Both the position numbers and the translations under genes were made by a program. Shown one piece after another: positions 39,441-57,723 of a stretch of 64,000 nucleotides of DNA. The stretch is taken from the NCBI RefSeq assembly GCF_016406085.1, contig NZ_JAEHFJ010000001.1, positions 310,001 to 374,000 on the forward strand, in the 5' to 3' direction. Numbering within the stretch: the stretch's first letter is position 1; the number at the start of each line of letters is the position of its first letter. This DNA comes from Aureibaculum flavum (lineage in GTDB: Bacteria; Bacteroidota; Bacteroidia; Flavobacteriales; Flavobacteriaceae). Under the pieces are notes generated by a model, which did not search any database, was not told the DNA's origin, and was given only the letters and a program-made list of their open reading frames with translations.

Positions 39441-39452
39441 TGATAAATATCA
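39441..39452 (+). promoter_or_regulatory. TGAYnnnnRTCA palindrome and promoter of USP gene 1
   Basis: TGATAAATATCA followed by TTT. Its centre is exactly 29.5 bp before TAAATTTA (39476-39483), a -7-like element, so it would sit near -41.5. The USP ATG is at 39509. Apart from this, the 316-bp gap 39193-39508 is plain AT-rich DNA that should also hold the rpsA promoter. Confidence 0.7.
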
Positions 39453-39508
39453 TTTTTTTTACAGGTTTTAACTTCTAAATTTACCTTACAATTTTTAAAG
39501 TAGATACC

Positions 39509-40366
39509 ATGAAAAATATACTTTACGCTACTGACTATTCAAAGTATTCTGTTACCGCGTTACAATATGCATATCAGTTAAGTACAAAAATGAATATCCA
39601 ATTAAAGGTAATTCATGTATTTCACTATCCATCCACATTATTAAATATTGTTGGAGATACTGAACCTGACTTTGGTGTAAACTATTTTGAAAAACATGCC
39701 TCCAAATTAGAACAATTTTGTATCGATAATTTAGGTTATGATTTAACAAATATAACTGTTGAAGCTGTTGAAAATAAATCCGTTTTAAACGGAATTATCG
39801 AAAAAGCTCAAGAATTAGATTCAACATTTGTAGTTGTTGGTACCAAAGGTAATGGCACTATTAAGGATTTTATAATGGGTAATACCACTAAAAACTTAAT
39901 AGAAAAAAGTTTATTTCCAATACTATCTATTCCTTATCAAAAAAGAATCTCAAAAATAAAAACGATAGTATATGCTACTGCCTTTGAAGAAGATGACATA
40001 CATGCTATTTGTAAATTAACTGAAATTGCAGAACCTTTAAAATCAGAAATAAAAGTGGTCCATGCATCTTTAAAAGATGAATATCCTGGTGAGGTTCAAA
40101 TGGCTTGGTTTAAAGAAATGATTGCCAATAAAATAAAATATGACAAAATTAGCTTTGAAGTAATTTCTTCAGATGACGTTTTTAATTCATTGCGATTATA
40201 CGCTGAAAAAAACGATGCAGATTTAATTGCTATGCTAGACCGCAAGAAAGGTGGATTTTTAAAAAAATTATTAAATAAAGATACGGTATTGCTAATGAAT
40301 GATTATGGCAAATATCCACTGATTAGTTTTAATGTTAGTAATTGTTTGAAACTAAACTTTTCCTAA
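39509..40366 (+). CDS. Tandem-domain universal stress protein (USP) 1
   Basis: Cytosolic protein of 285 residues made of two UspA folds. The N-terminal domain (1-145) starts MKNILYATDYSKYS and has the nucleotide-loop-like VVGTKGNGTIKDFIMGN, in the order GxxG-9x-G of ATP-binding USPs, with Asn where Ser/Thr is usual. The C-terminal domain (150-285) keeps the strand-helix pattern but lacks the loop. It is preceded by a palindrome at promoter distance and starts the USP island. Confidence 0.88.
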   Translation: MKNILYATDYSKYSVTALQYAYQLSTKMNIQLKVIHVFHYPSTLLNIVGDTEPDFGVNYFEKHASKLEQFCIDNLGYDLTNITVEAVENKSVLNGIIEKAQELDSTFVVVGTKGNGTIKDFIMGNTTKNLIEKSLFPILSIPYQKRISKIKTIVYATAFEEDDIHAICKLTEIAEPLKSEIKVVHASLKDEYPGEVQMAWFKEMIANKIKYDKISFEVISSDDVFNSLRLYAEKNDADLIAMLDRKKGGFLKKLLNKDTVLLMNDYGKYPLISFNVSNCLKLNFS

Positions 40367-40383
40367 TATCGGAATACCAAGAC

Positions 40384-40395
40384 TGATACAGGTCA
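40384..40395 (+). promoter_or_regulatory. TGAYnnnnRTCA palindrome before USP gene 2
   Basis: TGATACAGGTCA followed by TTT, 48 bp before the ATG at 40444. It is the one palindrome in the set without a TAnnTT element at the standard spacing, so its promoter is less certain. Confidence 0.55.
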
Positions 40396-40443
40396 TTTTA
40401 TTTAGGTTACAATTTTTGTTTTTTTATATAAAAATTAATCATC

Positions 40444-41289
40444 ATGAAAAATATACTTTTACCTACAGACTTTTCTGAAAATTCTAAAAACGCTATTAAT
40501 TACGCATTAGAGTTATTTAATAATGAACGGTGTAAATTTTATATTTTAAACACCTATACGCCTATAATCTATAACTATGATTATCAAATGAGTAGTGGTG
40601 CTTATATGGGCAATGTAGTTGATGTTATCAGGAATAACTCATTAGAAGCACTAAATGATCTTGAAAAATATGTAATTGAAAAATATAACAATCCCAATCA
40701 CGAATTCGAATTAATCTCTTCATTTAGCACACTTACCGACGAAATTGATTTGCTAGTAGCTCAAAAGAATTTGGATTTAATAATTATGGGTACCAAAGGA
40801 GCTTCTGGTGTTGAAGAAGTACTTTTTGGTACAAACACCATTCATACCATAAAAAAAGTCAAATGCCCCGTGTTGGCTATACCTGATGGTTTTTTCTTTG
40901 AAAAACCAAAAGATATTCTTTTTCCTACGGACTATAAAATTGATTACTCGGCTAAACATTTAGATATTTTAGAAACAATTAGCAGTATATACAACTCTAA
41001 AGTGCATATACTGCATGTTTCTTCAAATAGAGATTTAAATGATGAAGAAAATACCCATAAAAATAAATTAGACAAATTGTTAAGTACTCTAAATAAAGAA
41101 TTTTATTCTGTAAAAGATCAAGAAATTCCACAAGCAATAAATGAGTTTCAAAAAACCACCTATGTTCATATGTTAATGATGATTAAAAATAAACATACAT
41201 TCTTAGAAAATTTATTCTTTAAAAAAGTTATCAATCAAATTGGATTTCATTTAACCGTTCCATTCTTGGTTGTTCCTTCTAATTTTTAA
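40444..41289 (+). CDS. Tandem-domain universal stress protein 2
   Basis: Protein of 281 residues, two UspA folds. The N-terminal domain has MKNILLPTDFSENS and the complete ATP-loop motif IIMGTKGASGVEEVLFGTNT. The C-terminal domain starts near residue 156 (PKDILFPTDYKIDYS) and has lost the loop. USPs of this tandem type are thought to act as nucleotide-binding sensors or stabilisers under energy or oxygen stress. It is 10 bp from USP 3 and likely co-transcribed with it. Confidence 0.88.
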   Translation: MKNILLPTDFSENSKNAINYALELFNNERCKFYILNTYTPIIYNYDYQMSSGAYMGNVVDVIRNNSLEALNDLEKYVIEKYNNPNHEFELISSFSTLTDEIDLLVAQKNLDLIIMGTKGASGVEEVLFGTNTIHTIKKVKCPVLAIPDGFFFEKPKDILFPTDYKIDYSAKHLDILETISSIYNSKVHILHVSSNRDLNDEENTHKNKLDKLLSTLNKEFYSVKDQEIPQAINEFQKTTYVHMLMMIKNKHTFLENLFFKKVINQIGFHLTVPFLVVPSNF

Positions 41290-41299
41290 ATTAAGTAAA

Positions 41300-42130
41300 A
41301 TGAAAAATATATTAATACCGATCGACTTTTCTAAAAATTCTAAAAGTGCCGTTGAATATGCATTAAAGCTATATGAAAATGAGGTTTGTACTTTTTATTT
41401 TTTACATTCTACTAATTTCATTAACTCTACTTCAAGAACATATATAACACCGCATTATGTTGAAGAATCACATAAAAAAGGGTTGAAAAAAATGCAAGAA
41501 TTAGAATTAAAAACGAAACGGGAAAATGCACATGCAAAACATGATTATAAGCATATTATAAGCAATGACAAATTACATACCGCCATTGATAAAGCCATTA
41601 AACAGAATGATATTGAGCTTATAATTATGGGCACTAAAGGATGTACTGCAGCTGTTGAATTCTTTGCGGGCAGTAATACCGTCGAAGTCATTAATAAGGT
41701 TAAAAATTGTCCTATTTTAGTTATTCCAGAAGAATATAGTTTTATTGCTCCAAAACAAATTGGTTTTCCAACAGATTATAACCGTAAATATACGGATAGA
41801 GAACTAGAGACACTTAAAAACATGACCACGTTATATAATTCTGAAATAAGAATTGTACATATCAATGTCGAAAAAAGTTTAACGCTTTCTCAAAAAAAGA
41901 ATATAGAAAGATTAGAGAACTATTTAGCCGACCAGAAATACAATTTTCATTACATTGATGACAATTCAAAAAAATCAGAAAACATAATTATGTTTATCAA
42001 AGATTATAAGATTGACATGCTTGCCATGGTAAATTATGAACATGGTCCAATTGAGAATGTACTAAAGGAACCTGTGATAAAAAAATTAGCTTTTCATCCT
42101 AAAATTCCACTTTTAGTAATACCTGAATAA
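41300..42130 (+). CDS. Tandem-domain universal stress protein 3
   Basis: Start set at the ATG at 41300, which aligns with the other family members (MKNILIPIDFSKNS); the frame extends upstream into USP 2 but without an aligned start. The protein has 276 residues. The ATP loop in the N-terminal domain reads IIMGTKGCTAAVEFFAGSNT, again the full motif. The C-terminal domain (from PKQIGFPTDYNRKYT) lacks it. It follows USP 2 by 10 bp and has no palindrome of its own. Confidence 0.88.
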   Translation: MKNILIPIDFSKNSKSAVEYALKLYENEVCTFYFLHSTNFINSTSRTYITPHYVEESHKKGLKKMQELELKTKRENAHAKHDYKHIISNDKLHTAIDKAIKQNDIELIIMGTKGCTAAVEFFAGSNTVEVINKVKNCPILVIPEEYSFIAPKQIGFPTDYNRKYTDRELETLKNMTTLYNSEIRIVHINVEKSLTLSQKKNIERLENYLADQKYNFHYIDDNSKKSENIIMFIKDYKIDMLAMVNYEHGPIENVLKEPVIKKLAFHPKIPLLVIPE

Positions 42131-42198
42131 TATATTCAAAAACAACGTATTATTCGTTAAAATACTGATTACAATTTGTTCAATTAAAATTAGTACTA

Positions 42199-43041
42199 AT
42201 GAAAAATATTTTAATTCCTACCGACTTTTCTGATAATGCTTGGGATGCATTACTCTATGCCATAAGATTGTACGATACTGTTCCTGCTCATTTTTATATT
42301 TTACATACCTACCAAGCTGGTACTTCTAGAACTAGTAACCGAATGTCTAAGTATAGAGATACGCATCTTCATAGGGTATTAAAAGATGAATCAGAAAAAG
42401 GACTGAAAAAAATTCAACGTTATTTAGATGAAAATTTATTAAATGACGATCACAAATACCAAACAATATCTCAGGCTGGTGATTTAGTTTTTCAGATTAA
42501 ACAAGTTGTTGCAAATTATAATATAGATATTATCGTAATGGGCACTACTGGTGCTACTGGTGCTAAGGAGATTTTTATGGGAAGTAATGCTGTTAGCGTA
42601 ATTAACCATATAGAACTTTGCCCCGTATTAACAGTACCAAAAGATTATGAATTTACAGAATTAAAAAACATCATGTTTGCCACCGATTTAAAGAAAAAAT
42701 TTAGTTCCATTGAACTCGATTGTTTACTTGAATTACAAACAATTCATGATAGTAAAATTAATTTGCTATATGTTAAGGAATATTATGGTTTAAATGAAAA
42801 CCAACTTTATAATTTAATAGAAATAAAAGCATTATTCAAAGATAATCCGGCGACATTTTTAGAAACAGAATTAAAAGATAAGGTTGCAAAAACAATCATT
42901 AATTATTGTGAGAAAAATGAAGTTGATTTGGTCTGCTTAGTTAACTCTGAAAAGAAATTTCTAAAAAAATTAATGGAGGAAAATGTTATAAAAAAGATGA
43001 GTTTTCATAGTGCCATACCTTTATTAATTATCCCTATTTAG
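42199..43041 (+). CDS. Tandem-domain universal stress protein 4
   Basis: Protein of 280 residues with two UspA folds. The N-terminal domain starts MKNILIPTDFSDNA and its loop is IVMGTTGATGAKEIFMGSNA. The C-terminal domain starts at ELKNIMFATDLKKKFS. The 68-bp gap to USP 3 has a half palindrome only, so read-through from USP 2 is the simplest reading. The four genes from 39509 to 43041 are diverged paralogues (roughly a third alike by eye), not recent duplicates. Confidence 0.88.
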   Translation: MKNILIPTDFSDNAWDALLYAIRLYDTVPAHFYILHTYQAGTSRTSNRMSKYRDTHLHRVLKDESEKGLKKIQRYLDENLLNDDHKYQTISQAGDLVFQIKQVVANYNIDIIVMGTTGATGAKEIFMGSNAVSVINHIELCPVLTVPKDYEFTELKNIMFATDLKKKFSSIELDCLLELQTIHDSKINLLYVKEYYGLNENQLYNLIEIKALFKDNPATFLETELKDKVAKTIINYCEKNEVDLVCLVNSEKKFLKKLMEENVIKKMSFHSAIPLLIIPI

Positions 43042-43101: not shown

Positions 43102-43113
43102 TGATTAATATCA
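43102..43113 (+). promoter_or_regulatory. TGAYnnnnRTCA palindrome before the lipoprotein gene
   Basis: TGATTAATATCA followed by TTT. The centre is exactly 29.5 bp before TACATTTA (43137-43144). The gene start is at 43167. Confidence 0.7.
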
Positions 43114-43166
43114 TTTCATTCTTTAATTTATAGAAGTACATTTAAAGAACTAAATGTAGCACTATT

Positions 43167-43889: not shown

Positions 43890-44876
43890 CTAATTGTCTT
43901 TATTATTCACTTTCAGTTTCTTCTTTTCCAATTTTTTGAAATAACCTCTGAATAAAAAATTATGCTTTAACGCTTCTAAATTTTCATTTAAAAGGGTACT
44001 TCCGTCCTTTAAGTTCATCATAGTGCTGTCTATATTCTTAACAAAAACGGTATCATTAATCATATAATTGAGTGCACCATCACCTGATTTTATTCCTAAA
44101 ACCACATTATTTATATTATTAAGCACTGAATCTATTTTACTACTAGAGTAATCAAGGTTTTGAATGATAGATTTCATTTTTTTTGCTGAAATAGAATCAC
44201 TCAATAAGACAGCCGCCACACTCTCATTATAATTTACTGAATTCATAATTTTATTTAGTTTATCTATAGTCTCTGAAGCACTTATACTGGCGGATTTTAA
44301 AGTTAAAAAAGTCTCTTTAATATTTAACGCTAAGTTTTCATCATTGATTAGCATTCCAAGCGTTCCTTTACCTTGATTTACTTCAGTGGTTATTTTTAGT
44401 AAATCTGATGTCAGTAGTGCTGCATTTTCATTGGTTGTATTTAAAGTCGACATCATATCGCTGGTTGAAATTTTACTAAATGATTTAATCGTATCTCCAG
44501 ACATTAATGCTTCGGAACTTTCTTTTACGGGAACAATGTTAATAATCATACTCCCCACCAAACCGTCAGAACTAATCGCCGCTAATGCATTCTTTTTTAA
44601 ATGTTGTAAAATTTTATCTTCAACAATCATGTCTACACAAATTGTAGTGTCATTAATCATTTCTATACTTTTTACGGTTCCGACATTAATACCCGAATAT
44701 CTAACATTATTACCTAATTGTAAACCGTTCACATTATTAAACACGGCACTTATCCTAAAGGTTTTACCAAAAATATTTTGTTTATTCCCAATAAAATAAA
44801 GAGCAATAATTAATAATAGTGTACTCACAATTATAAATAAACCCAATTTAAATTTCTGTGTTTTCGTTTGTTGCAT
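43890..44876 (-). CDS. MlaD/MCE-family lipid-binding protein
   Basis: Start set at the ATG at 44876, 7 bp after the ATPase gene; the frame runs further upstream into that gene without a sensible N terminus. This gives 328 residues: an N-terminal membrane anchor (LGLFIIVSTLLLIIALYFIG), one MCE domain (VFNNVNGLQLGNNVRYSGINVGTV…SSDGLVGSMIINI), then a long helical tail. MCE proteins form hexameric periplasmic rings that move phospholipids between the membranes. It is the last gene of an operon with the ATPase and permease. Confidence 0.88.
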   Translation of the reverse strand: MQQTKTQKFKLGLFIIVSTLLLIIALYFIGNKQNIFGKTFRISAVFNNVNGLQLGNNVRYSGINVGTVKSIEMINDTTICVDMIVEDKILQHLKKNALAAISSDGLVGSMIINIVPVKESSEALMSGDTIKSFSKISTSDMMSTLNTTNENAALLTSDLLKITTEVNQGKGTLGMLINDENLALNIKETFLTLKSASISASETIDKLNKIMNSVNYNESVAAVLLSDSISAKKMKSIIQNLDYSSSKIDSVLNNINNVVLGIKSGDGALNYMINDTVFVKNIDSTMMNLKDGSTLLNENLEALKHNFLFRGYFKKLEKKKLKVNNKDN

Positions 44877-44883
44877 AGCTTCA

Positions 44884-45624
44884 TTATTTAAAAAATGCTT
44901 TAATATTTTTATCAGTTGATAATGCCAATTCTGCAAAACTACCTTCAGCATAATTTACACCATCAATTAGCAGAATCATTCTGTTCGCAATTACTCGAGC
45001 ACAATCAACGTCGTGCGTTATTATTAACGATGAAGCTCCATATTTTTCTTGAATATCTCTCATCAACTGAATAATTTCTTTTGACGTTATCGGATCTAAT
45101 CCCGTAGTAGGTTCATCATAAATTATGATTTTAGGTTTTAAAATAATAGCTCTTGCTAAAGCAACCCTACGTTTCATACCTCCTGAAAGTTCATCTGGCA
45201 TTAAATCTATTACTTGTGGTAAACCCACACTCTCTAATGCCTCTATAACTAATGCCTCTTTTTGTTTATATTTTTCTTTGTTTTTACGCAACGGAAACTC
45301 TAAGTTTTCTCGTACGGTCATAGAATCATAAAGTGCACTACCCTGAAAAAGGAACCCTATTTGCGTTCTTAATTCGTTTAATTGACTCAGTGTAAGTTTA
45401 GAAAGATCTTGACCCATAATTTCAATAAGACCACTATCATGATCTAATAAGCCCATTAAACATTTAATCATTACGGACTTACCAGAACCTGATTTTCCCA
45501 TAATCACTAAACTTTCACCTTTGTATAATTCTAAAGAAAATCCATTAAGCACATGGTTATCTCCGAAACTTTTTTTCAAGTCTACTATTTTTAAAACGGG
45601 TTCTCTGTTGTTTGTTTTTTCCAT
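44884..45624 (-). CDS. ABC transporter ATPase, MlaF-type
   Basis: Protein of 246 residues. Walker A is GKSGSGKSVMIK, the Q-loop is QIGFLFQGSALYDSMTV, the signature is LSGGMKRRVALARAI and Walker B is IIIYDEPTTGLDP. LSGGMKRR and the ALYDSMTV segment are typical of ATPases that pair with MlaE/MCE systems. It energises the lipid transport complex from the cytosol. It is 2 bp from the permease gene. Confidence 0.92.
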   Translation of the reverse strand: MEKTNNREPVLKIVDLKKSFGDNHVLNGFSLELYKGESLVIMGKSGSGKSVMIKCLMGLLDHDSGLIEIMGQDLSKLTLSQLNELRTQIGFLFQGSALYDSMTVRENLEFPLRKNKEKYKQKEALVIEALESVGLPQVIDLMPDELSGGMKRRVALARAIILKPKIIIYDEPTTGLDPITSKEIIQLMRDIQEKYGASSLIITHDVDCARVIANRMILLIDGVNYAEGSFAELALSTDKNIKAFFK

Positions 45625-45626
45625 AT

Positions 45627-46412
45627 TTAAACTTCAAAAAATATATCAACAATAAAAACAGCTATAAAATCTATTACAAAAAGAAGCATAGAGGTATAAA
45701 CTACAGCAGCATTAGAAGCTTCGCCAACACCAACAGTACCTTTTTTACAATAATAACCTTTAAATGTACCTACCAAACCAATGGCAAAACCGAAGAAAAA
45801 TGATTTTACCGTGGCCGGAATTATATCAGAATATTCTAATGCATCAATGACTTTGTTAAAATAGAGTAAAAATGAAACTTCGCCCTTTAGATTCTCTATA
45901 ATTGCCGAGCCTATTAATGCAACAGCATCACCAAAAATAATAAGTAAAGGAAGCATTAATGTAGCGGCCAAAATACGCGTTACTACTAAATACTTAAAGG
46001 GATTTGTTCCTGAAACCTCCATAGCATCTATTTGTTCTGTCACTCTCATAGAGCCTAGTTCAGCACCAATACCAGAGCCAATTCTTCCTGCACAAATCAA
46101 TGCAATAATAACAGGTCCAATTTCTCTCACAATAGAAATACTGACCATGGAGGGCATCCAAGATTCAGCTCCAAATTCCATTAAAGTGGGTCGCGATTGC
46201 AGTGTAAAAACCAAACCTAATATAAATCCAGTTACCCCCACCAATAACAACGAACGGTTACCCATATTATAACATTGGCGTAACAATTCTTTAAATTCAA
46301 AAGGTCTCGTGAAAACTTCTTTAAAAAAGCGACCTGCAAAATATGCCAGTTCACCTATTTCTTCAAAAAAGGATTTAAATTTAGTCGCTAATTGTGTTGA
46401 TTTGGATTTCAT
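45627..46412 (-). CDS. MlaE-type lipid ABC permease
   Basis: Protein of 261 residues with five or six membrane helices. The family motif GRIGSGIGAELGSMRVTEQIDAMEVSGTNPFKYLVVTRI is split here for length: GRIGSGIGAELGSM, then EQIDAMEVSG. It is the first gene of the MlaEFD-type operon. The promoter carries the shared palindrome with a perfect TAnnTTTG, so phospholipid transport seems to be co-regulated with the USPs. Confidence 0.9.
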   Translation of the reverse strand: MKSKSTQLATKFKSFFEEIGELAYFAGRFFKEVFTRPFEFKELLRQCYNMGNRSLLLVGVTGFILGLVFTLQSRPTLMEFGAESWMPSMVSISIVREIGPVIIALICAGRIGSGIGAELGSMRVTEQIDAMEVSGTNPFKYLVVTRILAATLMLPLLIIFGDAVALIGSAIIENLKGEVSFLLYFNKVIDALEYSDIIPATVKSFFFGFAIGLVGTFKGYYCKKGTVGVGEASNAAVVYTSMLLFVIDFIAVFIVDIFFEV

Positions 46413-46450
46413 ATCAATACAAATTTACCACTGATATTTATGTAATAAAA

Positions 46451-46462
46451 TGATTTAGATCA
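46451..46462 (-). promoter_or_regulatory. TGAYnnnnRTCA palindrome and promoter of the Mla operon
   Basis: On the minus strand TGATCTAAATCA followed by TTT. The centre is exactly 29.5 bp before TAAATTTG (46427-46420), a perfect -7 element, with the mlaE ATG at 46412. Confidence 0.8.
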
Positions 46463-46523: not shown

Positions 46524-47225
46524 TTAAAGGATCAGGCTAAACTTTTCTTTTACTTTATTCACCACTTCCATAACCATCATTTCTTCTATAATCAAAATTT
46601 CAGAAATCTCACTCACACTTTGATTTGCAAAAACATACAACTCAATAATGGCTTTGCTTCTTGGTGGCATCTTAAAAAATAGGCTTCCTAATAATTTTCG
46701 TTTTTTAGCAGATTGTAAAGTCAAATCTTCTAAATTCAGTTTACTGGTAATTAGTTTTTCTATGGATTGATCTAAGATAATATGTTTAGGCTTAAAATCG
46801 TTTTGATGGTAAGAAATATCATCTAATTCCTCATACAATATAAAGTCACCATCGCCATCTACAGTATACCTTTCATCCATGGTTTGCAATTCCTCTTTTA
46901 TGATATCACCAATATTGATATTATTTTCAAATTGGTGACCTAATATGGTTATTTCATCAATTTTTTCAACACTTTTTTCAAAAAGCATTCTTCTTAAATC
47001 CTTTTTCGCAATTTTATTATTGAAATTTTCAAATACGTTCAGGTACACCTCATCCAAAATATCATTAGGATTAAAAAAATTCTTATCTATTACCCCTAAA
47101 TCCTCCGCAATATTTAGCTTTCTTGCTATAAAATCTTTAAGACTAGGTATAAAGCTTGAAACTTTTACATAAAAATGTTTAAAATTATTCTCTAATCTTA
47201 ATTGTTGTAATTCTTTAGTAATCAT
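46524..47225 (-). CDS. Sigma-70-like protein, degenerate
   Basis: Protein of 233 residues. The middle FNPNDILDEVYLNVFENF resembles sigma region 2, and the C-terminal LFFKMPPRSKAIIELYVFANQSVSEISEILIIEE resembles region 4 with its helix-turn-helix. Between them is a long acidic insert (TVDGDGDFILYEELDD) absent in ordinary ECF factors. The recognition helix is rich in acidic residues and methionine, unlike a DNA-binding surface. It may be a divergent sigma factor or a sigma-like regulator that binds RNA polymerase or an anti-sigma factor. It lies in the stress island without its own palindrome. Confidence 0.6.
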   Translation of the reverse strand: MITKELQQLRLENNFKHFYVKVSSFIPSLKDFIARKLNIAEDLGVIDKNFFNPNDILDEVYLNVFENFNNKIAKKDLRRMLFEKSVEKIDEITILGHQFENNINIGDIIKEELQTMDERYTVDGDGDFILYEELDDISYHQNDFKPKHIILDQSIEKLITSKLNLEDLTLQSAKKRKLLGSLFFKMPPRSKAIIELYVFANQSVSEISEILIIEEMMVMEVVNKVKEKFSLIL

Positions 47226-47750: not shown

Positions 47751-47797
47751 CCTTTCATATTTTTATTAAAAATAATAAGAAATTAGCTGTTTTAAAA

Positions 47798-47809
47798 TGA
47801 CCAATATCA
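47798..47809 (-). promoter_or_regulatory. TGAYnnnnRTCA palindrome before the flavoprotein gene
   Basis: On the minus strand TGATATTGGTCA followed by TTT. The centre is exactly 29.5 bp before TATTTTTA (47774-47767). The ATG is at 47750. Confidence 0.7.
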
Positions 47810-48739: not shown

Positions 48740-48800
48740 TGCTTTTAAGAATTAATTATTTATTTCTAATAAAGTTAATAAATAGTCTAGCCTTTAAAAA

Positions 48801-48812
48801 TGATACATATCA
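48801..48812 (-). promoter_or_regulatory. TGAYnnnnRTCA palindrome between MscS and the kinase
   Basis: On the minus strand TGATATGTATCA followed by TTT. The centre is exactly 29.5 bp before TAACTTTA (48777-48770), so it serves the MscS gene. For the divergent kinase gene no TAnnTT lies at the same spacing; TAACTTTA at 48872-48879 may be its -7 element. The palindrome might still affect the kinase promoter. Confidence 0.7.
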
Positions 48813-48912: not shown

Positions 48913-50793
48913 ATGTTTCAACAAAATCAAGATATATTTAGCATTCTATCTGAAGCAATTTCTGAATGTATTATCATTATTGATAATGATCAAAAAATTG
49001 TTTCTACAAATTCGTCTACCAATAAAGTTTTTGGTTATACCTCTGCCGAATTAATAGGAAAATCTTTAGAAAAACTTATTCCAAAAAAATATCATAAAAT
49101 TCAAAAGGTTCTCTTCAAAAAGTTTGTTAAAAAAGGTGAGAAAAGACAAATTTCAGATAGTATAGAACTTTATGGATTACGAAAAAATGGTGCAATTTTC
49201 CCTACAGAAATTGGTTTAAATCCTTTTACCGTTTATGGTAAAACCTATAACATGGTTTTATTGATTGATATTACCGAAAGAAAAGAAAATGAAAAAAATT
49301 TACTCATAAAAAGTGAAGCTCTGCAGTCTGCAGCCAATGGTATTGTTATAACTGACGCCTTACAATTTGACAACCCCATCATTTATTGCAATTCCGCCTT
49401 TATTAGACTCACGGGGTATTCAGAATCAGAAATCATAAATAAAAATTGCAGGTTCTTACAAACTGATGATAGAGATCAAGAAAGCATAGAGCAAATTCGA
49501 TTGGCTATAAAAGAAGGAAAAAGTTGCAAGACAATACTACGTAATTATAAAAAAGACGGTACTTTATTTTGGAATGACTTGTCTGTAACGCCTATAAAAA
49601 ATAATGAGGGTGTTGTTACTCATTTTATCGGTATTCAAAATGATATTACAAAGCGAATGTACGCTGAGCAAGAACTTAAGCACTGGGCTTCCATTTTTGA
49701 TGAATCATTAAATGAAATATTTATATTCGATAAAGTATCATTAAAATTTTTAAATGCCAATAGAGGAGCTCAAAAAAATATAGGTTATACGCTAGAAGAA
49801 CTTAAAGAATTGACGCCTTTTGATATAAAACCTGAAATTATCGAAAGTGATTTTAGAGCATTGATCGCTCCTCTAATTCATAAGGACAAAGAAAAAATTG
49901 AATTTGAAGCCATCCATCAAAGAAAAGATGGTACCACGTACCCTGTTGAAGTCCACTTACAACTATCTTCATCTGAAGATCATGAATTACTCGTCGCTAT
50001 AATCTTAGATATTACTGAACGAAAAAATTATACAGAAAAGTTAGAAAACACTGTCGAAAAACGGACCCAACAATTGAAAATTGCCTTGACTAAAGAAAAA
50101 GAGCTAAACGAGCTTAAAACAAAGTTTCTGTCTTTAGTATCACATGAATTTAAAACACCTTTAAGTGGTATATTAACATCAACTATTTTACTAGAAAAAT
50201 ACAAGCTCACTGAACAACAAGAAAAAAGAGATAAACACTTAAATATAATTACAAGTAAAGTTCATTACCTCAACAATATTTTAAATGATTTTTTATCCAT
50301 TGAACGTTTAGAATTAGGAAAAGTAACCTATAAATTCACTGATTTTAATTTAAGTAAAGTTGTAAACGAAGTGGTTTACAATGCAAATATGTTATTAAAA
50401 GGTGGACAAAAAATTAATATCTCTCCAAATAGTGATGAATTTAACTTACATCAAGATGAGCGAATTTTAGAATTAATTTTGTCAAATTTAATTTATAATT
50501 CCATAAAATATTCACCTGAAAATACAGATATTAATCTTGAAGTTTCAGAATGTGAAAAGAATTTAATTTTAAGGGTTATTGATTACGGTATAGGAATACC
50601 AATAAATGATCAAAAACATATATTTAATCGTTACTTTAGAGCTGAAAATGTATTGAATAATCATGGTACAGGAATCGGCCTAAATATAATTAAAGCACAT
50701 TTGGAAAATTTAGGTGGAACAATAAACTTCAAAAGTGAAGAAAATAACGGGTCTACATTTACAGTTGAACTTCCTAAAATAATTGAAAAATGA
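48913..50793 (+). CDS. PAS-LOV-PAS sensor histidine kinase
   Basis: The ATG at 48913 gives 626 residues; the open frame continues upstream to 48739, but that stretch holds the operator and promoter. Layout: PAS 1 (about 5-125), LOV-type PAS 2 (about 133-250), PAS 3 (about 257-372), coiled coil, HisKA with phospho-acceptor His411 in SLVSHEFKTPL, and a HATPase domain to the end (NLIYNSIKYSP, DYGIGIP, HGTGIGLNI). PAS 2 has NC179RFLQ, N211YKKDG, FWN221 and GIQ242ND. Their spacing (32, 10, 21) equals that of Avena phot1 LOV2 (C450, N482, N492, Q513), which predicts a flavin-binding blue-light photoreceptor. No membrane segment, so it is cytosolic. Its stop overlaps the start of the response regulator by 4 bp. 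Confidence 0.92.
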   Translation: MFQQNQDIFSILSEAISECIIIIDNDQKIVSTNSSTNKVFGYTSAELIGKSLEKLIPKKYHKIQKVLFKKFVKKGEKRQISDSIELYGLRKNGAIFPTEIGLNPFTVYGKTYNMVLLIDITERKENEKNLLIKSEALQSAANGIVITDALQFDNPIIYCNSAFIRLTGYSESEIINKNCRFLQTDDRDQESIEQIRLAIKEGKSCKTILRNYKKDGTLFWNDLSVTPIKNNEGVVTHFIGIQNDITKRMYAEQELKHWASIFDESLNEIFIFDKVSLKFLNANRGAQKNIGYTLEELKELTPFDIKPEIIESDFRALIAPLIHKDKEKIEFEAIHQRKDGTTYPVEVHLQLSSSEDHELLVAIILDITERKNYTEKLENTVEKRTQQLKIALTKEKELNELKTKFLSLVSHEFKTPLSGILTSTILLEKYKLTEQQEKRDKHLNIITSKVHYLNNILNDFLSIERLELGKVTYKFTDFNLSKVVNEVVYNANMLLKGGQKINISPNSDEFNLHQDERILELILSNLIYNSIKYSPENTDINLEVSECEKNLILRVIDYGIGIPINDQKHIFNRYFRAENVLNNHGTGIGLNIIKAHLENLGGTINFKSEENNGSTFTVELPKIIEK

Positions 50794-51845
50794 AAAAAAT
50801 TTTATTAATAGAAGATGACGTTGTTGTCAGAGAAAACACAGCAGAGCTATTAGAGTTATCTAATTATGAGGTTTTTACAGCTCCAGATGGTAAAAGTGGT
50901 ATTACAAAAGCTATCACAGAATTACCAGATGTAATTATATGTGATATCATGATGCCAGAAGTAAATGGCTATGAAGTATTAAATGTACTTTCTAAGACAA
51001 TTGCTACACAGCATATTCCTTTTATTTTTTTATCCGCTAAAACTGAATATAGCGATATCCGAAAAGGAATGGATATGGGAGCTGACGATTATTTAACCAA
51101 ACCTTTTAATGAAGCCGAGCTTATTAGTGCTATTGAAAGTAGAATTGCCAAAGTAGCACTTCTAAATGAGAATTCAGAATTAAAAAGCCTTATACAATCA
51201 TACCAAAGTGATGATAATCTTAAAACAATTGATCAGTTAAAAAACTATTTTTCTGATAATGCAGAAGAAGTTTCTTATAACCTTGATCAAACTATATATA
51301 GAGAAGGAGATCATTCAAATTACATTTATTTAATATATAAAGGGGTTGTAAAAACATCAAAAACTGATGAACAAGGCAAGGAATTAATTACCGCTTTACA
51401 CAAAGGAGATGATTTTTTTGGACTAACGTCTTTATCTCATAATAGACCTTATAATGAATCTGCAATAGCACTCGAAAAAACGCAAGTTTTTAGATTAGTG
51501 AAAAATGATTTTAAAGATCTTTTATTAAAAAATCATGCCTTAACATTAGAATTGCTGGACTATTCTACAAAAAATGTAACCGAAATTAAAGATCAATTAT
51601 TACAAATGGCATATAGTTCGGTTAGAAAAAAAACCGCAAATACTATTTTACAGTTTGCTGAAAAAATTAAAAAACATCCAAAAGATGGTATTCGCATCTC
51701 AAGAAGTGACTTGGCTAGTGTAGCTGGTATTGCCACCGAGACTTTTATAAGAACCTTAACCCGTTTAAAAAAGGATGGTATCATTGATATTGAAGGAAGA
51801 AATATAAAGGTAATTGATATTGAGTTGTTAAGACAAGTTTATTGA
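50790..51845 (+). CDS. Response regulator: REC, cNMP-like and CRP-type HTH domains fused
   Basis: Protein of 351 residues. REC (1-120): acidic pair near residues 9-10, phospho-acceptor Asp52 in CDIMMPE, LSAK and LTKPF. A CRP-like beta-roll follows (about 150-250; YREGDHSNYIYLIYKGVVKTSKTD, HKGDDFFGLTSL). The usual cAMP residues (Glu in FGE, Arg in RTA) are replaced by Leu and Glu (GLTSL, ESAIA), so cAMP binding is unlikely. The C-terminal CRP-type HTH has E317-T-F-I-R321, matching Glu181 and Arg185 of CRP, which read TGA half-sites. It overlaps the kinase gene, so the two form a two-component pair. It is the best candidate for binding the TGAYnnnnRTCA palindromes. Confidence 0.9.
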   Translation: MKKILLIEDDVVVRENTAELLELSNYEVFTAPDGKSGITKAITELPDVIICDIMMPEVNGYEVLNVLSKTIATQHIPFIFLSAKTEYSDIRKGMDMGADDYLTKPFNEAELISAIESRIAKVALLNENSELKSLIQSYQSDDNLKTIDQLKNYFSDNAEEVSYNLDQTIYREGDHSNYIYLIYKGVVKTSKTDEQGKELITALHKGDDFFGLTSLSHNRPYNESAIALEKTQVFRLVKNDFKDLLLKNHALTLELLDYSTKNVTEIKDQLLQMAYSSVRKKTANTILQFAEKIKKHPKDGIRISRSDLASVAGIATETFIRTLTRLKKDGIIDIEGRNIKVIDIELLRQVY

Positions 51846-51860: not shown

Positions 51861-51872
51861 TGATATATATCA
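51861..51872 (+). promoter_or_regulatory. TGAYnnnnRTCA palindrome and promoter of USP gene 5
   Basis: TGATATATATCA followed by TTG. The centre is exactly 29.5 bp before TAATTTAG (51896-51903). The USP start is at 51927/51930. The palindrome lies 15 bp after the stop codon of the response regulator gene. Confidence 0.75.
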
Positions 51873-51926
51873 TTGTATAAAATCTATAACACGTCTAATT
51901 TAGATGGAAATTATAGAACGAATATA

Positions 51927-52769
51927 ATGATGACTAATATTTTAATCCCCACAGACTTTTCAGAAAATTCATGGAATGCAATCGCATATTCCATAAAGTA
52001 TTTTGAAAAATCAACATGTAATTTTTATTTACTACATGTTACTCCGATAATTAATTATGCAAGTGGTGAAACTCCACCACTCCCCTTTAGTGGCTCTGTA
52101 GAAAAAGAACTATTACAGCAATCGAAATCTGATTTGCAAGACCTATTAAATAGGATTAAGAAAATAGATCTAAATACTAAGCATACTTTTATAACCATAC
52201 CTAGTTACGATTATTTTATTGATTCCATAAGAGGGCAAATTGAAGAAAAAAAGATTGACCTTGTGATTATGGCTACTAAAGGTGCCTCTGGTATTAAAAA
52301 AATAGTAATTGGAAGTAATACTGGCGATTTAATTACAAAGGTAAAAATACCTGTAATGGTTATTCCTGAAAAAGCAACATTTAAAGTCCCTAAAGAAATA
52401 GCTTTTCCGACTGACTATAACATATTTTATCATACCAAAATTATAAGTGATATGTTAGAATTTTCTAAAAATCATGATACTATTATTAGAGTAGTACATG
52501 TTGCTAAAAAAAATGAGGAATTAACACAATTCCAATTAGAAAATAAAGAATATTTAGAGGAAGTTTTAAGTACTATTACCCATAGTTTTCATAGAATAAG
52601 TAATAAAAAAATTGAAGCAGGTATTGAATGTTTTGTAGAAAGTAGAGATATTGATATGATATTTATGGTTGCAAAAAATTTAACTCTTTTTCAACAAGTT
52701 ATGTTCAAGCCAACTGTTGAAGAAATAAGTTATCGTACCAAGATTCCCTTTATCGTATTACATGAATAA
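51927..52769 (+). CDS. Tandem-domain universal stress protein 5
   Basis: The start is at ATG 51927 or the next codon 51930, aligned with MTNILIPTDFSENS of the family; the frame also extends to a TTG at 51873, which overlaps the operator. About 280 residues. The ATP loop reads VIMATKGASGIKKIVIGSNT, where the first Gly of GxxG is Ala. The C-terminal domain starts PKEIAFPTDYNIFY and lacks the loop. It is followed after 15 bp by the small membrane protein gene and shares its transcript. Confidence 0.88.
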   Translation: MMTNILIPTDFSENSWNAIAYSIKYFEKSTCNFYLLHVTPIINYASGETPPLPFSGSVEKELLQQSKSDLQDLLNRIKKIDLNTKHTFITIPSYDYFIDSIRGQIEEKKIDLVIMATKGASGIKKIVIGSNTGDLITKVKIPVMVIPEKATFKVPKEIAFPTDYNIFYHTKIISDMLEFSKNHDTIIRVVHVAKKNEELTQFQLENKEYLEEVLSTITHSFHRISNKKIEAGIECFVESRDIDMIFMVAKNLTLFQQVMFKPTVEEISYRTKIPFIVLHE

Positions 52770-53258: not shown

Positions 53259-53873
53259 CTACCAGGAATATAGATTCCATTTTTCATTTTTAGTTTTTAA
53301 AGCAATCAATCTTGGAGCAATAATCTTGGAGTGAAAACTTGGTGGTAAACTAGTAGAATTCATAGCGTCATTATAGCCCCTTCCATTATCTAAATACTTA
53401 ATTATCTTACCTGAACCATCAATAACATACTCTTCTAAATTATAGGAAACAACATTTTTACTTAAGATTTTGTTTTTACCCATAGTCGTAGTGTCTATTT
53501 TTATAATAATAGCAATGCCCTCTTTAAAATTGGTAACATTTAAAAATTGAGGTTCTATTATCGTATTCCCCTCTTTGTCCATGTAGCCATAATAAAAGGT
53601 ATTGTCAATCCGCTTTTTAATGATGCATTTACCTTCTTTAAATATGGGATACTTTATTGATGGTTCTTCACTATTAATTTCAGTGGCTACGACACCATCT
53701 CTAAAATCGATTACTTTTTCTCCTTTTTTATTTATAAAGGCCCATTGGTCATTTTTTTGCACAGCTGCCAAATCCTCATTAAAAGGTGAAACAAAATCAA
53801 TATCCTTTAAATTCTGAGAAAACAAAATCTGATTGACAGAAAAGCACAGCAGTAAAACTATTAATTTTTTCAT
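53259..53873 (-). CDS. Exported WG-repeat protein
   Basis: Protein of 204 residues with a signal peptide (MKKLIVLLLCFSVNQILFSQ). It carries WG-type beta repeats: PFNEDLAAVQKNDQWAFINKKGEKVI and a more divergent FKEGKCIIKK…YYGYMDKEGNTIIEPQF. Such repeats are common in Bacteroidota, with no defined function; binding to cell wall or other proteins is possible. Its promoter has a perfect palindrome and -7 element, so it is part of the stress regulon. Confidence 0.75.
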   Translation of the reverse strand: MKKLIVLLLCFSVNQILFSQNLKDIDFVSPFNEDLAAVQKNDQWAFINKKGEKVIDFRDGVVATEINSEEPSIKYPIFKEGKCIIKKRIDNTFYYGYMDKEGNTIIEPQFLNVTNFKEGIAIIIKIDTTTMGKNKILSKNVVSYNLEEYVIDGSGKIIKYLDNGRGYNDAMNSTSLPPSFHSKIIAPRLIALKTKNEKWNLYSW

Positions 53874-53928
53874 GATTGTATCTATTTAGAATTCAATCAA
53901 AATTACTACCCCTAGTATTTTTACGAAA

Positions 53929-53940
53929 TGATCAAGATCA
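53929..53940 (-). promoter_or_regulatory. TGAYnnnnRTCA palindrome and promoter of the WG-repeat gene
   Basis: On the minus strand TGATCTTGATCA followed by TTT. The centre is exactly 29.5 bp before TAATTTTG (53905-53898), a perfect -7 element. The ATG is at 53873. Confidence 0.8.
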
Positions 53941-54011
53941 TTTTTTATGAAATCCAATTAAATTAGTTTTAATAAAACAAAAATTTACCTCTTGACATTT
54001 AATAAGGTAAC

Positions 54012-54023
54012 TGATATATATCA
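54012..54023 (+). promoter_or_regulatory. TGAYnnnnRTCA palindrome before the coiled-coil protein gene
   Basis: TGATATATATCA followed by TTT. The centre is exactly 29.5 bp before TACCTTAG (54047-54054). The next annotated start is at 54232, so the predicted leader is unusually long (about 170 nt). Confidence 0.65.
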
Positions 54024-54059
54024 TTTCAAATTAGAATCAATATAAATACCTTAGTGTAC

Positions 54060-54697: not shown

Positions 54698-54753
54698 AAA
54701 AGATAGTATCGGTTGTAACCTTTTAGATTAAAAACCTTTACTATCTTTTATTG
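54698..54753 (+). terminator. Possible terminator with long loop
   Basis: Inverted arms AAAAGATAGTA (54698-54708) and TACTATCTTTT (54739-54749) separated by 30 nt. It follows the coiled-coil protein gene. The loop is long, so the assignment is weak. Confidence 0.4.
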
Positions 54754-54817
54754 CTAACACGAACTTTATAAATCTTTTTCTTGTAGAATTCTCCTTGAAA
54801 AAAACATTTGAAAAAAC

Positions 54818-55642
54818 TTACAAAAACAATAAAGGTATTTTACTAGCATACGTTATTTCTGTCTTACTAGCCTTTGAAAAAATTCTTTTAAAAAAAGATT
54901 CGACATGTATAATTTTAGCAACTAAACGCACTTCTTTTGATGCTATAAAATGCTCAACGGCATTTTCAATAGACCTATTTTCATCCGTATAAAAGTGTAA
55001 TGTGTTGTCTTTAAAAAATGAATTTAAGGCCTCTTTTTGAAGGTTATATTTATCTCTTTCATTCTGATTAACGATTGTTAATACATTCAGATGTGAATTA
55101 AATTTCGATAGAATACCACGTAATGGTTTTACAATATTCTTTTCTAAACTTATTTCCGTTTCATTGATAAATAAAACTTGCGATGGTTTACAGAACTTGT
55201 AATTTTTAGGAATAACCAAAATAGGTAAATCAACTTTTTCAATAACCTGAATTGTATTCGAACCGAAAACAGCTTCTTTTATACTTGAGGCTCCATTTGT
55301 TCCCATAACAATCATATCCACATGTTCAATTTCTACTAGTTGTTTTATGGCACTGACAAAACTATCATAATCACAAACTCCTTCAAAAGTATAGGCTTCA
55401 TTAGCGTATTCTTTCTTTAAATCATTTACTAAAATCTCTAATGTTTTTTTAGGATTTTTTATGACGGAATCGTAAATAGATTTTTTGGGAGATGCTATTA
55501 AATCACTTGTAATATATTTGGAAACTTTCTGCACATTGAGCACATAAAACGTAATGGTGTCTCCACTAAAAAACTGCATTGCATAGGCTATAGCATTGCC
55601 AGCATTCTTTGAAAAATCAGTTAATAAAAGTATCCGTTTCAT
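54818..55642 (-). CDS. Tandem-domain universal stress protein 6
   Basis: Start set at the ATG at 55642, which aligns with the family (MKRILLLTDFSKNA); the frame extends to 55705 into the operator. It has 274 residues. The ATP loop reads IVMGTNGASSIKEAVFGSNT. The C-terminal domain begins PSQVLFINETEIS and has lost both the loop and the usual TD motif. It is divergent from hemN, with both genes served by one palindrome. Confidence 0.88.
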   Translation of the reverse strand: MKRILLLTDFSKNAGNAIAYAMQFFSGDTITFYVLNVQKVSKYITSDLIASPKKSIYDSVIKNPKKTLEILVNDLKKEYANEAYTFEGVCDYDSFVSAIKQLVEIEHVDMIVMGTNGASSIKEAVFGSNTIQVIEKVDLPILVIPKNYKFCKPSQVLFINETEISLEKNIVKPLRGILSKFNSHLNVLTIVNQNERDKYNLQKEALNSFFKDNTLHFYTDENRSIENAVEHFIASKEVRLVAKIIHVESFFKRIFSKASKTEITYASKIPLLFL

Positions 55643-55692
55643 AATTATATTTTTTCTCTTATAAAAATACAAATTACAACGTATTGTAAATA

Positions 55693-55704
55693 TGACATTT
55701 ATCA
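55693..55704. promoter_or_regulatory. Shared palindrome of divergent USP 6 and hemN promoters
   Basis: TGACATTTATCA. To the right, TAATTTTG (55728-55735) lies exactly 29.5 bp from the centre, before hemN (55760). To the left, on the minus strand, TATTTTTA (55669-55662) lies exactly 29.5 bp away, before USP 6 (55642). One site can therefore serve both promoters at -41.5. Confidence 0.85.
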
Positions 55705-55759
55705 TTGTATCTACTTCATAACAACATTAATTTTGACAACAAGAAAATAAGTTAATCCT

Positions 55760-57127
55760 ATGCCAAATTCAACATTAATTCAAAAGTATAATGTACCTGG
55801 TCCAAGATATACTAGTTACCCTACAGTTCCTTATTGGAATGAAGATAGCATAGATGAAAATAGCTGGAAGCAATCCATTAAAAAGTCTTTTGATGAAAGT
55901 AATTCTTCAAAGGGAATTAGTTTATATCTACACCTTCCTTTTTGCGAAAGTCTATGTACTTTTTGTGCTTGCCATAAATACATTACAAAGCGACATGAAT
56001 TAGAAACACCGTATATTGAAACGTTGTTAGCAGAGTGGCAACTGTACTTGCAACAATTTGATAAAAAACCGGTGTTAAAAGAGTTACATTTAGGTGGCGG
56101 AACTCCTACCTTTTTTGAGGTGGAAAATTTAGAACTGTTAATAAAAACAATTCTAAAAACAGTGGATTTACATAGAGATTTTGAATTTAGTTTTGAAGGT
56201 CATCCCAACAATACGACCAAAGAACATTTACAAACCTTATATAATTTAGGTTTTACTCGAGTGAGTTATGGTGTACAAGATTATTCAGAAAAAATTCAAA
56301 AAGCGATCAATAGAAAGCAGTCTTTTGAAGATGTAAAAAATGTAACGCAATGGGCTAGAGATATTGGCTATACTTCTATTAGTCACGACCTTATTTTCGG
56401 ATTACCATTTCAGACCATTAACGACATTATAGATACCATAAAAAAAACGAAAGAATTAAAACCTGAACGTATTTCGTTTTACAGTTATGCTCATGTACCA
56501 TGGATTAAAGGTGTTGGCCAAAGAGGTTTTAAAGATTCAGATATACCCAATGGTGATGAAAAACGAAAACTATATGAAATGGGTAAACATATGTTATTGA
56601 ACCTAGGATATATTGAAACGGGCATGGATCATTTTGCTTTACCAACAGATTCCCTCTCTAGAGCTTTTAAAGATGCTAATATGCACAGGAATTTTATGGG
56701 ATACACTACGAATCCAACACAATTAATGATAGGATTGGGTATGTCTGCCATTAGCGATTCTTGGTATAGTTTTTCACAAAATGAGAAAACGTTAAAAGCG
56801 TATCAAGATCAAATTCAAAAAGGAGTACTCCCTCTTTTAAAAGGTCATTTATTATCTGAAGAAGATTTAATAATCAGAAAACACATACTAAACATTATGT
56901 GTCATTTTAAAACTTCTTGGAAAAATGACAACATGAAGTTTGACGAGCTCTCTGAAACATTAGGTCGTTTAAAGGAATTAGAAAAAGATGGCTTAGTTGT
57001 TATTTTAGATGATGAACTCATTATTCCTGAAAATGCAAGGGCATTTGTAAGAAATATATGTATGGCATTTGATTTACGAATGGTTCGTAACAAACCAAAT
57101 ACCAAATTATTTTCATTGACAGTATGA
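55760..57127 (+). CDS. hemN: Oxygen-independent coproporphyrinogen III dehydrogenase (HemN)
   Basis: Radical SAM enzyme of 455 residues. The cluster motif is C62-x3-C66-x2-C69-x-C71 in FCESLCTFCAC, with LHLGGGTPTFFEV and the SAM-binding SFEGHPN after it. It converts coproporphyrinogen III to protoporphyrinogen IX without oxygen, so it supports haem synthesis in anoxia. Length and the C-terminal AFDLRMVRN region match true HemN rather than HemW. The palindrome in its promoter fits regulation by low oxygen or a similar signal. Confidence 0.95.
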   Translation: MPNSTLIQKYNVPGPRYTSYPTVPYWNEDSIDENSWKQSIKKSFDESNSSKGISLYLHLPFCESLCTFCACHKYITKRHELETPYIETLLAEWQLYLQQFDKKPVLKELHLGGGTPTFFEVENLELLIKTILKTVDLHRDFEFSFEGHPNNTTKEHLQTLYNLGFTRVSYGVQDYSEKIQKAINRKQSFEDVKNVTQWARDIGYTSISHDLIFGLPFQTINDIIDTIKKTKELKPERISFYSYAHVPWIKGVGQRGFKDSDIPNGDEKRKLYEMGKHMLLNLGYIETGMDHFALPTDSLSRAFKDANMHRNFMGYTTNPTQLMIGLGMSAISDSWYSFSQNEKTLKAYQDQIQKGVLPLLKGHLLSEEDLIIRKHILNIMCHFKTSWKNDNMKFDELSETLGRLKELEKDGLVVILDDELIIPENARAFVRNICMAFDLRMVRNKPNTKLFSLTV

Positions 57128-57228
57128 TATTAAGATGCGAAAATTTAGACCAAGAATAAGGTAAAAATGATAGCTTAAAAATTAATTTTAAGGATTATAA
57201 ACTAAAGTTAAGCCTATTGGAAAGAAGA

Positions 57229-57657
57229 TTAAAAAACATGTGTGTGTCCGTCTTTTATTTCCTTGGTAAAATTGGCAATAGTTTTATTTGTTAGCTCCTC
57301 TACTAATTTATTCCGTAAGGGTGCTACTAAATGATGAATTGGACAAGGGTTTTCACTATCACAAACAGGTAAACCTAAAGAACATCCTTGAAATTTTTCT
57401 AACCCATCTATGGCAGCTACTATAGAGATCATTGTATTTTGTTTATCAGCATTCGTAAGGTAAAAACCTCCGTTCCTACCCTTTCTTGAAGAAATTATAT
57501 TTCTTTTGGTAAGTTCTTGCAAGGTTTTAGCTAAAAAAGGAGCCGGTATATCAATTATTTCAGCAATTGATTTTGGATTGAATTTTTTTTCATCATCAGA
57601 GTTTAACGATAAAAACAGCACTGCTCTAATGGCATAAGTGCTTGATTTTGAAAGCAT
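57229..57657 (-). CDS. Rrf2-family regulator, NsrR-like
   Basis: Protein of 142 residues. The winged helix is at the N terminus (STYAIRAVLFLSL, IPAPFLAKTLQELTKRNIISSRKGRNGGF), and three Cys occur at 92, 99 and 105 in GCSLGLPVC…NPC. Such a triad binds an Fe-S cluster in NsrR and IscR. It is divergent from the nos cluster, so control of that cluster, with NO or Fe-S status as the signal, is the natural inference. It could also be an IscR-type regulator of distant genes. Confidence 0.88.
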   Translation of the reverse strand: MLSKSSTYAIRAVLFLSLNSDDEKKFNPKSIAEIIDIPAPFLAKTLQELTKRNIISSRKGRNGGFYLTNADKQNTMISIVAAIDGLEKFQGCSLGLPVCDSENPCPIHHLVAPLRNKLVEELTNKTIANFTKEIKDGHTHVF

Positions 57658-57711
57658 ATTTTATAATTTTATTAAGATAACAAAGTAAAAAGATAATAAT
57701 ATCTTTTTATA

Positions 57712-57723
57712 TGACAAATGTCA
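57712..57723 (+). promoter_or_regulatory. TGAYnnnnRTCA palindrome and promoter of the nos cluster
   Basis: TGACAAATGTCA. The centre is exactly 29.5 bp before TATATTTG (57747-57754), a perfect -7 element, with the fasciclin ATG at 57779. On the minus strand a TACTTTG lies 1 bp out of register before the Rrf2 gene, so that side is doubtful. Confidence 0.8.

Follow-up and report, generated by a model that had tools for sequence, protein, structure and literature searches.

The class-II promoters of Escherichia coli CRP and FNR have their boxes centred at about -41.5, and what appears to be an analogous geometry is found in a 64,000-nucleotide stretch of the Aureibaculum flavum genome (contig NZ_JAEHFJ010000001.1, positions 310,001 to 374,000), which we refer to as the window. 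Here, eleven intergenic palindromes of the form TGAYnnnnRTCA lie upstream of stress, transport and nos genes, most of them at a fixed distance from a -7 element. A preliminary description had proposed a CRP/FNR-type activator for these sites, and this idea is supported by regulators of the family whose recognition helix fits and whose occurrence across genomes follows that of the sites. It had missed the likely activator, a two-component response regulator encoded in the window itself, which joins a receiver to a CRP-type DNA-binding part and which we refer to as REC–CRP. In our judgement the sites are probably class-II operators of CRP/FNR-type activators, the most likely activator in the window being this REC–CRP protein when phosphorylated by the PAS kinase encoded beside it. 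It differs from E. coli CRP in its fused N-terminal receiver and in the replacement of the Glu and Arg that contact cAMP, and its promoters in having TAnnTTTG as the -7 element.

The FixL–FixJ–FixK and hFixL–FxkR–FixK/FnrN systems of rhizobia are alike in having a FixL-type PAS kinase (here found in relatives of A. flavum), a CRP/FNR-type activator, a second regulator, of Fnr type, with almost the same box, and the cbb3 oxidase among their targets. In Rhizobium leguminosarum the hFixL pathway acts through FxkR to induce FixK, and induces fnrN and fixNOQP, and FixK and FnrN have the common box TTGAT-N4-ATCAA (PMC7888657). The system described here differs in that the receiver and the CRP-type part are one protein, with no separate FixJ-type regulator activating fixK and no such transcription step. 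Its box begins A-TGAY rather than TTGAT and is paired with a Bacteroidota -7 promoter, and the window kinase itself, unlike FixL, has no heme His.

The likeness to the DosS/DosT–DosR system of mycobacteria is one of content. DosR is a NarL-type regulator, DosS and DosT are GAF heme kinases, and Hsp20, a hibernation factor and pyruvate-phosphate dikinase are members of its regulon; genes for universal stress proteins (Usp), Hsp20 and Ribosomal_S30AE recur downstream of the boxes described here. The DosR/DosS/DosT regulon is given as at least 48 genes, including six for Usp, in hypoxia and nitric oxide (NO) stress (PMC8509486). The regulator here is of CRP type and not NarL type, and no homology in DNA binding is claimed. 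A third comparison is with LovK, a LOV histidine kinase: the window kinase also has a LOV domain upstream of its histidine kinase part, with 7r5n as its best match in the Protein Data Bank (PDB), but this LOV domain lies between PAS domains, the relatives of the kinase carry a heme-type PAS and the partner is a REC–CRP protein. Within the Bacteroidota, HcpR2 of Bacteroides is a regulator of the FNR family with a predicted motif, GTAACnnnnGTTAC, and, in most Bacteroides species, a regulon of hcp only (PMC1274295); both differ from the box and regulon here. Among the matches listed for the open-licence literature (titles and starts of abstracts), none dealt with this box, a REC–CRP regulon or its LOV version in Bacteroidota. 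The system is best read as a DosR-like Usp/Hsp20/cbb3 programme under class-II activation of the CRP type, in which FixJ and FixK are combined in a single protein.

Boxes and promoter spacing

The window has 15 matches to TGAYnnnnRTCA, a number reached by none of 100 shuffles (mean 3.87, standard deviation 2.19). Eleven are intergenic and are exactly the eleven sites of the preliminary description; all fall within the 2,735 intergenic bases after 39.2 kb, and none was found in the 4,243 intergenic bases (of 6,978) before that point, in keeping with its remark that no sites had been noticed in the gaps of the first 39 kb. Their intergenic position holds for all eleven, but two need later start codons than those of the longest open reading frames (ORFs). 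The 48801 box is intergenic only if the kinase starts at the ATG at 48913, a 626-amino-acid start common to congeners, and not at the TTG at 48739 where the ORF opens, and the 55693 box only if the Usp gene starts at the ATG at 55642 and not at 55705. The remaining four boxes (8070, 11404, 48981 and 49467, the last two within the kinase gene) are inside ORFs, and at none of the four does a TAnnTT element lie at the distance given below.

At ten of the eleven intergenic boxes, as had been reported, a TAnnTT element facing the gene starts exactly 29.5 bp from the box centre, which leaves a gap of 23 bp; the exception is the 40384 box, and the 53929 and 55693 boxes have the element on both sides. 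On each strand, TAnnTT starts at some 2% of intergenic positions, or about 4% per site with either side allowed, giving a probability for at least ten of eleven at one offset of 9.7e-14 (5.9e-12 after correction for 61 offsets). A gap scan of the window found 12 matches at gap 23 and three at the next best gap. Positions -1 to -3 of the half-sites are A in 83, 75 and 83% of cases, the counterpart of the TTT extension already noted on the gene side. It is from the 29.5-bp distance that we infer a box position of -41.5.

The same spacing dominates in the rest of the 4.75 Mb genome, in which the window lies on contig C1. An extended pattern with the gap left free over ten values had 11 matches, all with identical spacing (reversed controls, 0), and with the gap free from 13 to 33 there were 41 (controls, 7), 25 at gap 23 and 16 across the other 20 gaps. 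Equal densities of such pairs were not seen in control DNA: eleven stretches of the same genome (220 kb) held 17 boxes, none at gap 23, and 66 stretches from various phyla (1.13 Mb), matched only in or near the receiver part, held 110 boxes, again with none at gap 23. The 220-kb set leaves out the stretch around the Fnr-like gene discussed below (L022; two boxes, none at gap 23) and that next to the window (L025; one box, at gap 23), neither of which was centred on known boxes. Further clusters of the regulon lie outside the window, at C39:119-163 kb and C35:288-294 kb, where some intergenic boxes have no -7 element; one of these clusters has a second REC–CRP and a different inner box sequence. 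On contig C4 one 45-base sequence resembling a box, with a gap of 25, is present in two identical copies at a distance of 234 bp (144402-144446 and 144636-144680), which looks like a repeat outside the gap-23 set.

Box and spacing are kept together in relatives, with 748 matches to the fixed-gap pattern in 100 genera of the family against 12 in reversed controls, and, across 119 genomes of the class, 430 outside the own genome against 13; REC–CRP was found at E<=1e-50 in 63 of these 119. At 14 named REC–CRP loci (Aquimarina, Salinimicrobium, Flavobacterium, Chitinophaga and others) gap 23 had 19 matches, the most of any. In the 20 kb around REC–CRP of type A (defined below), 20 genera together have 123 boxes; 94 of these are paired with TAnnTT at gap 23, and every other gap from 10 to 40 has 0-6 matches. 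The set fetched for type B (20 stretches, 12 genomes) had 84 at gap 23, and this count, like the Pfam tally of the set, refers to a mixed set in which the regulators of G007, G031, G025, G047 and G022 are outside clade B. One genome of another family (G179) has 24 fixed-gap sites, several near-identical (TGATTAATATCATAGTT...AAATAGTTTTG; for example C11:20034, C11:24875, C59:13990 and C76:34033), as if the boxed promoter had been copied many times.

The REC–CRP regulator and its proposed sensor kinase

Six proteins of the genome have a Crp-type helix-turn-helix. The one in the window, encoded directly downstream of the PAS histidine kinase gene, matches Pfam cNMP_binding (71.1 bits) and HTH_Crp_2 (47.7 bits), and the part encoded at 51177-51842 matches CRP-family PDB chains including E. 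coli CRP and FixK2. The D9, D10, D52 and K104 residues of its receiver are invariant in a 23-row alignment, so that it has the phospho-acceptor Asp, the Lys and the adjacent kinase of a two-component response regulator. In CRP relatives a Glu and an Arg of the phosphate-binding cassette contact cAMP. Alignment with 4cyd shows both replaced (FGELS..PRTSSA against FGLTS..PYNESA), as does that with 4byy, which points to phosphorylation rather than cAMP as the likely switch. The recognition helix of FNR is GLTVETISR, in which Glu and Arg have roles at the TGA half-site; the window protein has both, in GIATETFIR, and GIATESLIR is the commonest form among its relatives.

A helix of the form TE[ST].IR is common to the window REC–CRP, the second REC–CRP and an Fnr-like protein, the other three Crp-type proteins having no Glu (L012, L013) or the helix PESLSR (L014). 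The second REC–CRP and its own PAS kinase, of 801 amino acids, are encoded at C39:156905-160377 (L015:14905-18377), where the nearby boxes mostly have C or G as the inner base; an aldehyde dehydrogenase, three BON-domain proteins and a 3HCDH gene are also found in this cluster. The Fnr-like protein (P0003, C1:408593-409276) has 228 amino acids and no receiver, and seems to use nearly the same box. Its Cys 4, 7, 53 and 106 are present in 24 of 24 aligned rows and Cys 59 in 21; it scores 87.9 with the Fnr model (cut-off 228), and its Cys spacing differs from the E. coli pattern. A box without TAnnTT at 29.5 lies 42 bp before its ATG (L022:9540, C1:408540), which would fit a different kind of autoregulation. 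In G002, two adjacent frames of 325-330 amino acids (C1:199475 and C1:200789) match the receiver part of REC–CRP only, at 50-52% identity, and may be related receivers with another output.

A tree separates REC–CRP A, REC–CRP B and the Fnr-like proteins, and the sites near the two REC–CRP types differ. Seven genomes have both loci, and in these the half-site has C or G as its first inner base in 16 of 100 cases near type A and in 74 of 122 near type B (Fisher 7e-12, with half-sites that are not independent). The window sites are mostly of the A type (TGATAWATATCA) and those on C39 are TGACCTAGGTCA-like. This contrast within one genome is the best evidence that the sites belong to the neighbouring REC–CRP. 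Gene order is also conserved: kinase, REC–CRP, box and a Usp5 homologue follow one another in 19 of 20 genera, with the kinase adjacent in all 20, and, of the 46 loci (out of 50) with a recognised regulator, among them those of the own genome and genus, 42 have a boxed promoter just after the regulator stop.

For the kinase, the first PAS of one relative had 13 PDB matches at E<=1e-6, all labelled FixL, DosP, heme PAS sensor or YddU; the entries under the latter two labels are DosP. The column of the heme-ligand His, read in 48 loci, is His in 43; the window species and two congeners have Gln instead, and two other rows also depart from His. The FixL-type proximal His is thus present in relatives and replaced in the window protein, whose PAS still resembles FixL but has neither this His nor the distal Arg. 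The window kinase has instead a LOV-like PAS sequence with the cysteine motif of such domains, and this region (residues 192-317) matches NCBIfam YtvA_fam below the curated cut-off. LOV domains occur in eight of the 48 kinases, from five genera, the His being lost as well only in the window clade, and own-genus kinases have PAS-HK, PAS-PAS-HK and PAS-LOV-PAS-HK architectures, where HK is histidine kinase. The distal Arg is kept in two of six LOV lineages against 30 of 40 others (p = 0.06), so that a link between its loss and LOV is suggestive only. Judged from these residues, the ancestral input was probably oxygen at a FixL-type heme PAS. This species has lost the heme-ligand residues and has a LOV flavin domain, so that its kinase probably responds to blue light, to flavin redox or to some other PAS signal. 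More tentatively, and with doubt prevailing, a conserved low-oxygen, DosR-like survival regulon of Bacteroidota, governed by a FixL-type kinase and a single-protein REC–CRP, may have been rewired in this species and two sister species, so that with the heme ligand lost and LOV reading blue light or flavin redox, light rather than oxygen would gate Usp, Mla, hemN and nos genes.

Assignment of the sites

In the mechanism we propose, the kinase would sense oxygen (heme PAS, ancestral) or, here, light or flavin redox (LOV), and would phosphorylate REC–CRP with no cAMP gating. A REC–CRP dimer on TGAYnnnnRTCA about 41.5 bp before the start would recruit polymerase to TAnnTTTG promoters and switch on a local regulon comprising the genes for Usp proteins, Mla lipid transport and MscS together with hemN and nos. 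The Fnr-like paralogue probably recognises nearly the same box, in relatives mainly for the cbb3 oxidase.

The alternative of most weight, although we consider it rather improbable, would assign the window sites, as operators, to the Fnr-like regulator or another Crp-family protein, with REC–CRP acting elsewhere and its position incidental. Full-length REC–CRP is found in 42 of the 100 family genomes and the Fnr-like protein (E<=1e-40) in 58, and in raw genome tallies that ignore phylogeny the median number of sites is 13.5 with both regulators (22 genomes), 8 with REC–CRP only (20 genomes, 2-16 sites), 6 with the Fnr-like protein only (36 genomes, 2-15 sites) and 0 with neither (22 genomes; twelve with none, seven with one, and two, three and nine sites in G086, G051 and G048). 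The expectation that genomes without REC–CRP should lack sites was rejected, as those with only the Fnr-like protein retain them, at the same gap and with nearly the same box. The helix of this protein, TESAIR, also resembles the TETFIR of REC–CRP, and its invariant Cys residues would suit an Fe-S oxygen sensor. Against it stand the sites of the genomes with REC–CRP only, the clustering of sites around REC–CRP in 20 genera and the change of site sequence with the neighbouring regulator inside one genome; where REC–CRP is absent, moreover, sites near the Fnr-like gene are mostly before the cbb3 oxidase.

Several observations count against REC–CRP as the regulator of the window sites. Since genomes with only the Fnr-like protein have sites, those of the window may serve both regulators or mainly the other one, and the six genomes of the own genus without a REC–CRP match (which 11 of 17 have) hold 1-12 sites when sorted by REC–CRP alone. 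By its helix residues alone L014 would also fit as regulator. Sites are present without either regulator in G086, G051 and G048 (completeness of G051 and G048, 88% and 82%). Among the 22 genomes that have neither, 13 are below 2.3 Mb, and the eight of at least 2.6 Mb have 0-3 sites. The contrast between A and B sites is reversed in G037 (A 4/14, B 2/10), the other six genomes agreeing. Only about 20-25 kb separate the two loci in G037, G011 and G056, so the assignment of sites there is loose. No -7 element accompanies 29 of the 123 boxes near type A, nor the 40384 box, and six of the 14 named REC–CRP loci, several of them outside the family, have no gap-23 site in the DNA covered. Finally, heme binding in the relatives is predicted from their sequences.

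That the box is instead a repressor site, or a mixed activator and repressor site of the same proteins, is very unlikely: the box before the Fnr-like gene and the 40384 box, both without TAnnTT at 29.5, would suit it, but a repressor would tolerate other positions, and the strict class-II spacing at ten of eleven sites and family-wide is of the kind that a contact with polymerase would require. An origin as terminators, as structural repeats or by chance in AT-rich DNA can be practically discounted in spite of the palindromic, AT-rich box, the shuffled and reversed controls having ruled out chance and AT-richness as the source of the pattern and the boxes being paired in orientation with -7 elements and start codons.

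Gene neighbourhoods and regulon content

The features of the window are collected in Table 1. The genes following the sites are largely those of the preliminary description (Usp, Mla, MscS, WG, hemN and nos), with the correction that its flavoprotein is a Pyridox_ox_2 protein. HemN matches TIGR00538 (427 bits) and NosZ matches TIGR04246 (953 bits). The fasciclin-cytochrome c-nosZ genes are divergent from a gene for an Rrf2-family regulator (57229-57657), possibly an NO or Fe-S repressor of nos, and the 57712 box lies in the common intergenic gap. Between the Mla and Pyridox_ox_2 genes, gene 46524-47225 has a weak sigma-70/ECF match (28.6 bits, cut-off 42.9).

Table 1. Boxes, promoters and genes of the window
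Feature	Position	Strand	Context
Box with TAAATTTA at 29.5	39441..39483	+	Upstream of Usp 39509
Box without TAnnTT at 29.5	40384..40395	+	Upstream of Usp 40444
Box with TACATTTA at 29.5	43102..43144	+	Upstream of gene 43167
Box with TAAATTTG at 29.5	46420..46462	-	Upstream of MlaE-MlaF-MlaD genes
Box with TATTTTTA at 29.5	47767..47809	-	Upstream of Pyridox_ox_2 gene 47295-47750
Box with TAACTTTA at 29.5	48770..48812	-	Upstream of MscS-like gene 47825-48739
Box with TAATTTAG at 29.5	51861..51903	+	Right after regulator stop, upstream of Usp 51927-52769; counterpart in most relatives
Box with TAATTTTG at 29.5	53898..53940	-	Upstream of WG-repeat gene 53259-53873
53929 box, opposite reading of 53898..53940, with TAGTTTTA at 29.5	53929..53971	+	260 bp before gene 54232
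Box with TACCTTAG at 29.5	54012..54054	+	177 bp before gene 54232
Box with TATTTTTA at 29.5	55662..55704	-	Upstream of Usp 54818-55642
55693 box, opposite reading of 55662..55704, with TAATTTTG at 29.5	55693..55735	+	Upstream of hemN 55760-57127
Box with TATATTTG at 29.5	57712..57754	+	Upstream of fasciclin-cytochrome c-nosZ genes from 57779
Four Usp genes	39509..43041	+	
MlaD, ABC (MlaF-like) and MlaE genes	43890..46412	-	
PAS-LOV-PAS-HisKA-HATPase sensor histidine kinase, proposed partner	48913..50793	+	Pfam; 626 amino acids from ATG 48913
N-terminal PAS, FixL/DosP type; heme-ligand His column Gln, distal Arg column Ile	48913..49296	+	
LOV domain, NCRFLQ photoactive-cysteine motif	49312..49689	+	PDB best 7r5n, 6.9e-37
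REC–CRP response regulator, type A (receiver, cNMP-binding, HTH_Crp), proposed activator	50790..51845	+	Pfam Response_reg, cNMP_binding, HTH_Crp_2, Crp

In the type-A neighbourhoods of the 20 genera, 80 of the 85 downstream genes were tallied with Pfam, four short ORFs and one duplicate start being excluded and 8 of the 94 sites having no assigned gene. They include Usp (39), Hsp20 (6), Ribosomal_S30AE (4), CcoNO (3), WG (2), Pyridox_ox_2 (2), MlaE (1) and HemN_C (1), among others. Around the Fnr-like gene in 20 genomes without REC–CRP, 17 of 24 downstream genes are CcoNO, the cbb3 oxidase fusion, and three are Usp. Median distances from the end of the -7 element to the ATG are 23 bp in the type-A neighbourhoods, 31 bp for set B and 35 bp for the own genome. 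Around the Fnr-like gene the median is 214 bp, which suggests that a short gene precedes CcoNO there. In two genera (L093 and L096) the Fnr-like gene follows the boxed Usp5 gene behind REC–CRP, which hints that REC–CRP drives the Fnr-like gene in a feed-forward arrangement similar to that of rhizobia.

Taken together, these data predict an operator, a promoter geometry and a regulator for one regulon, which is clear in its own family and probably extends beyond it. REC–CRP would be a compact alternative to FixL–FixJ–FixK, and the system may be a convergent equivalent of the DosR programme. With REC–CRP A, REC–CRP B and the Fnr-like protein on slightly different versions of one box, the system offers a natural test of how the specificity of paralogues evolves, and the change of sensor from heme PAS to LOV is directly testable.

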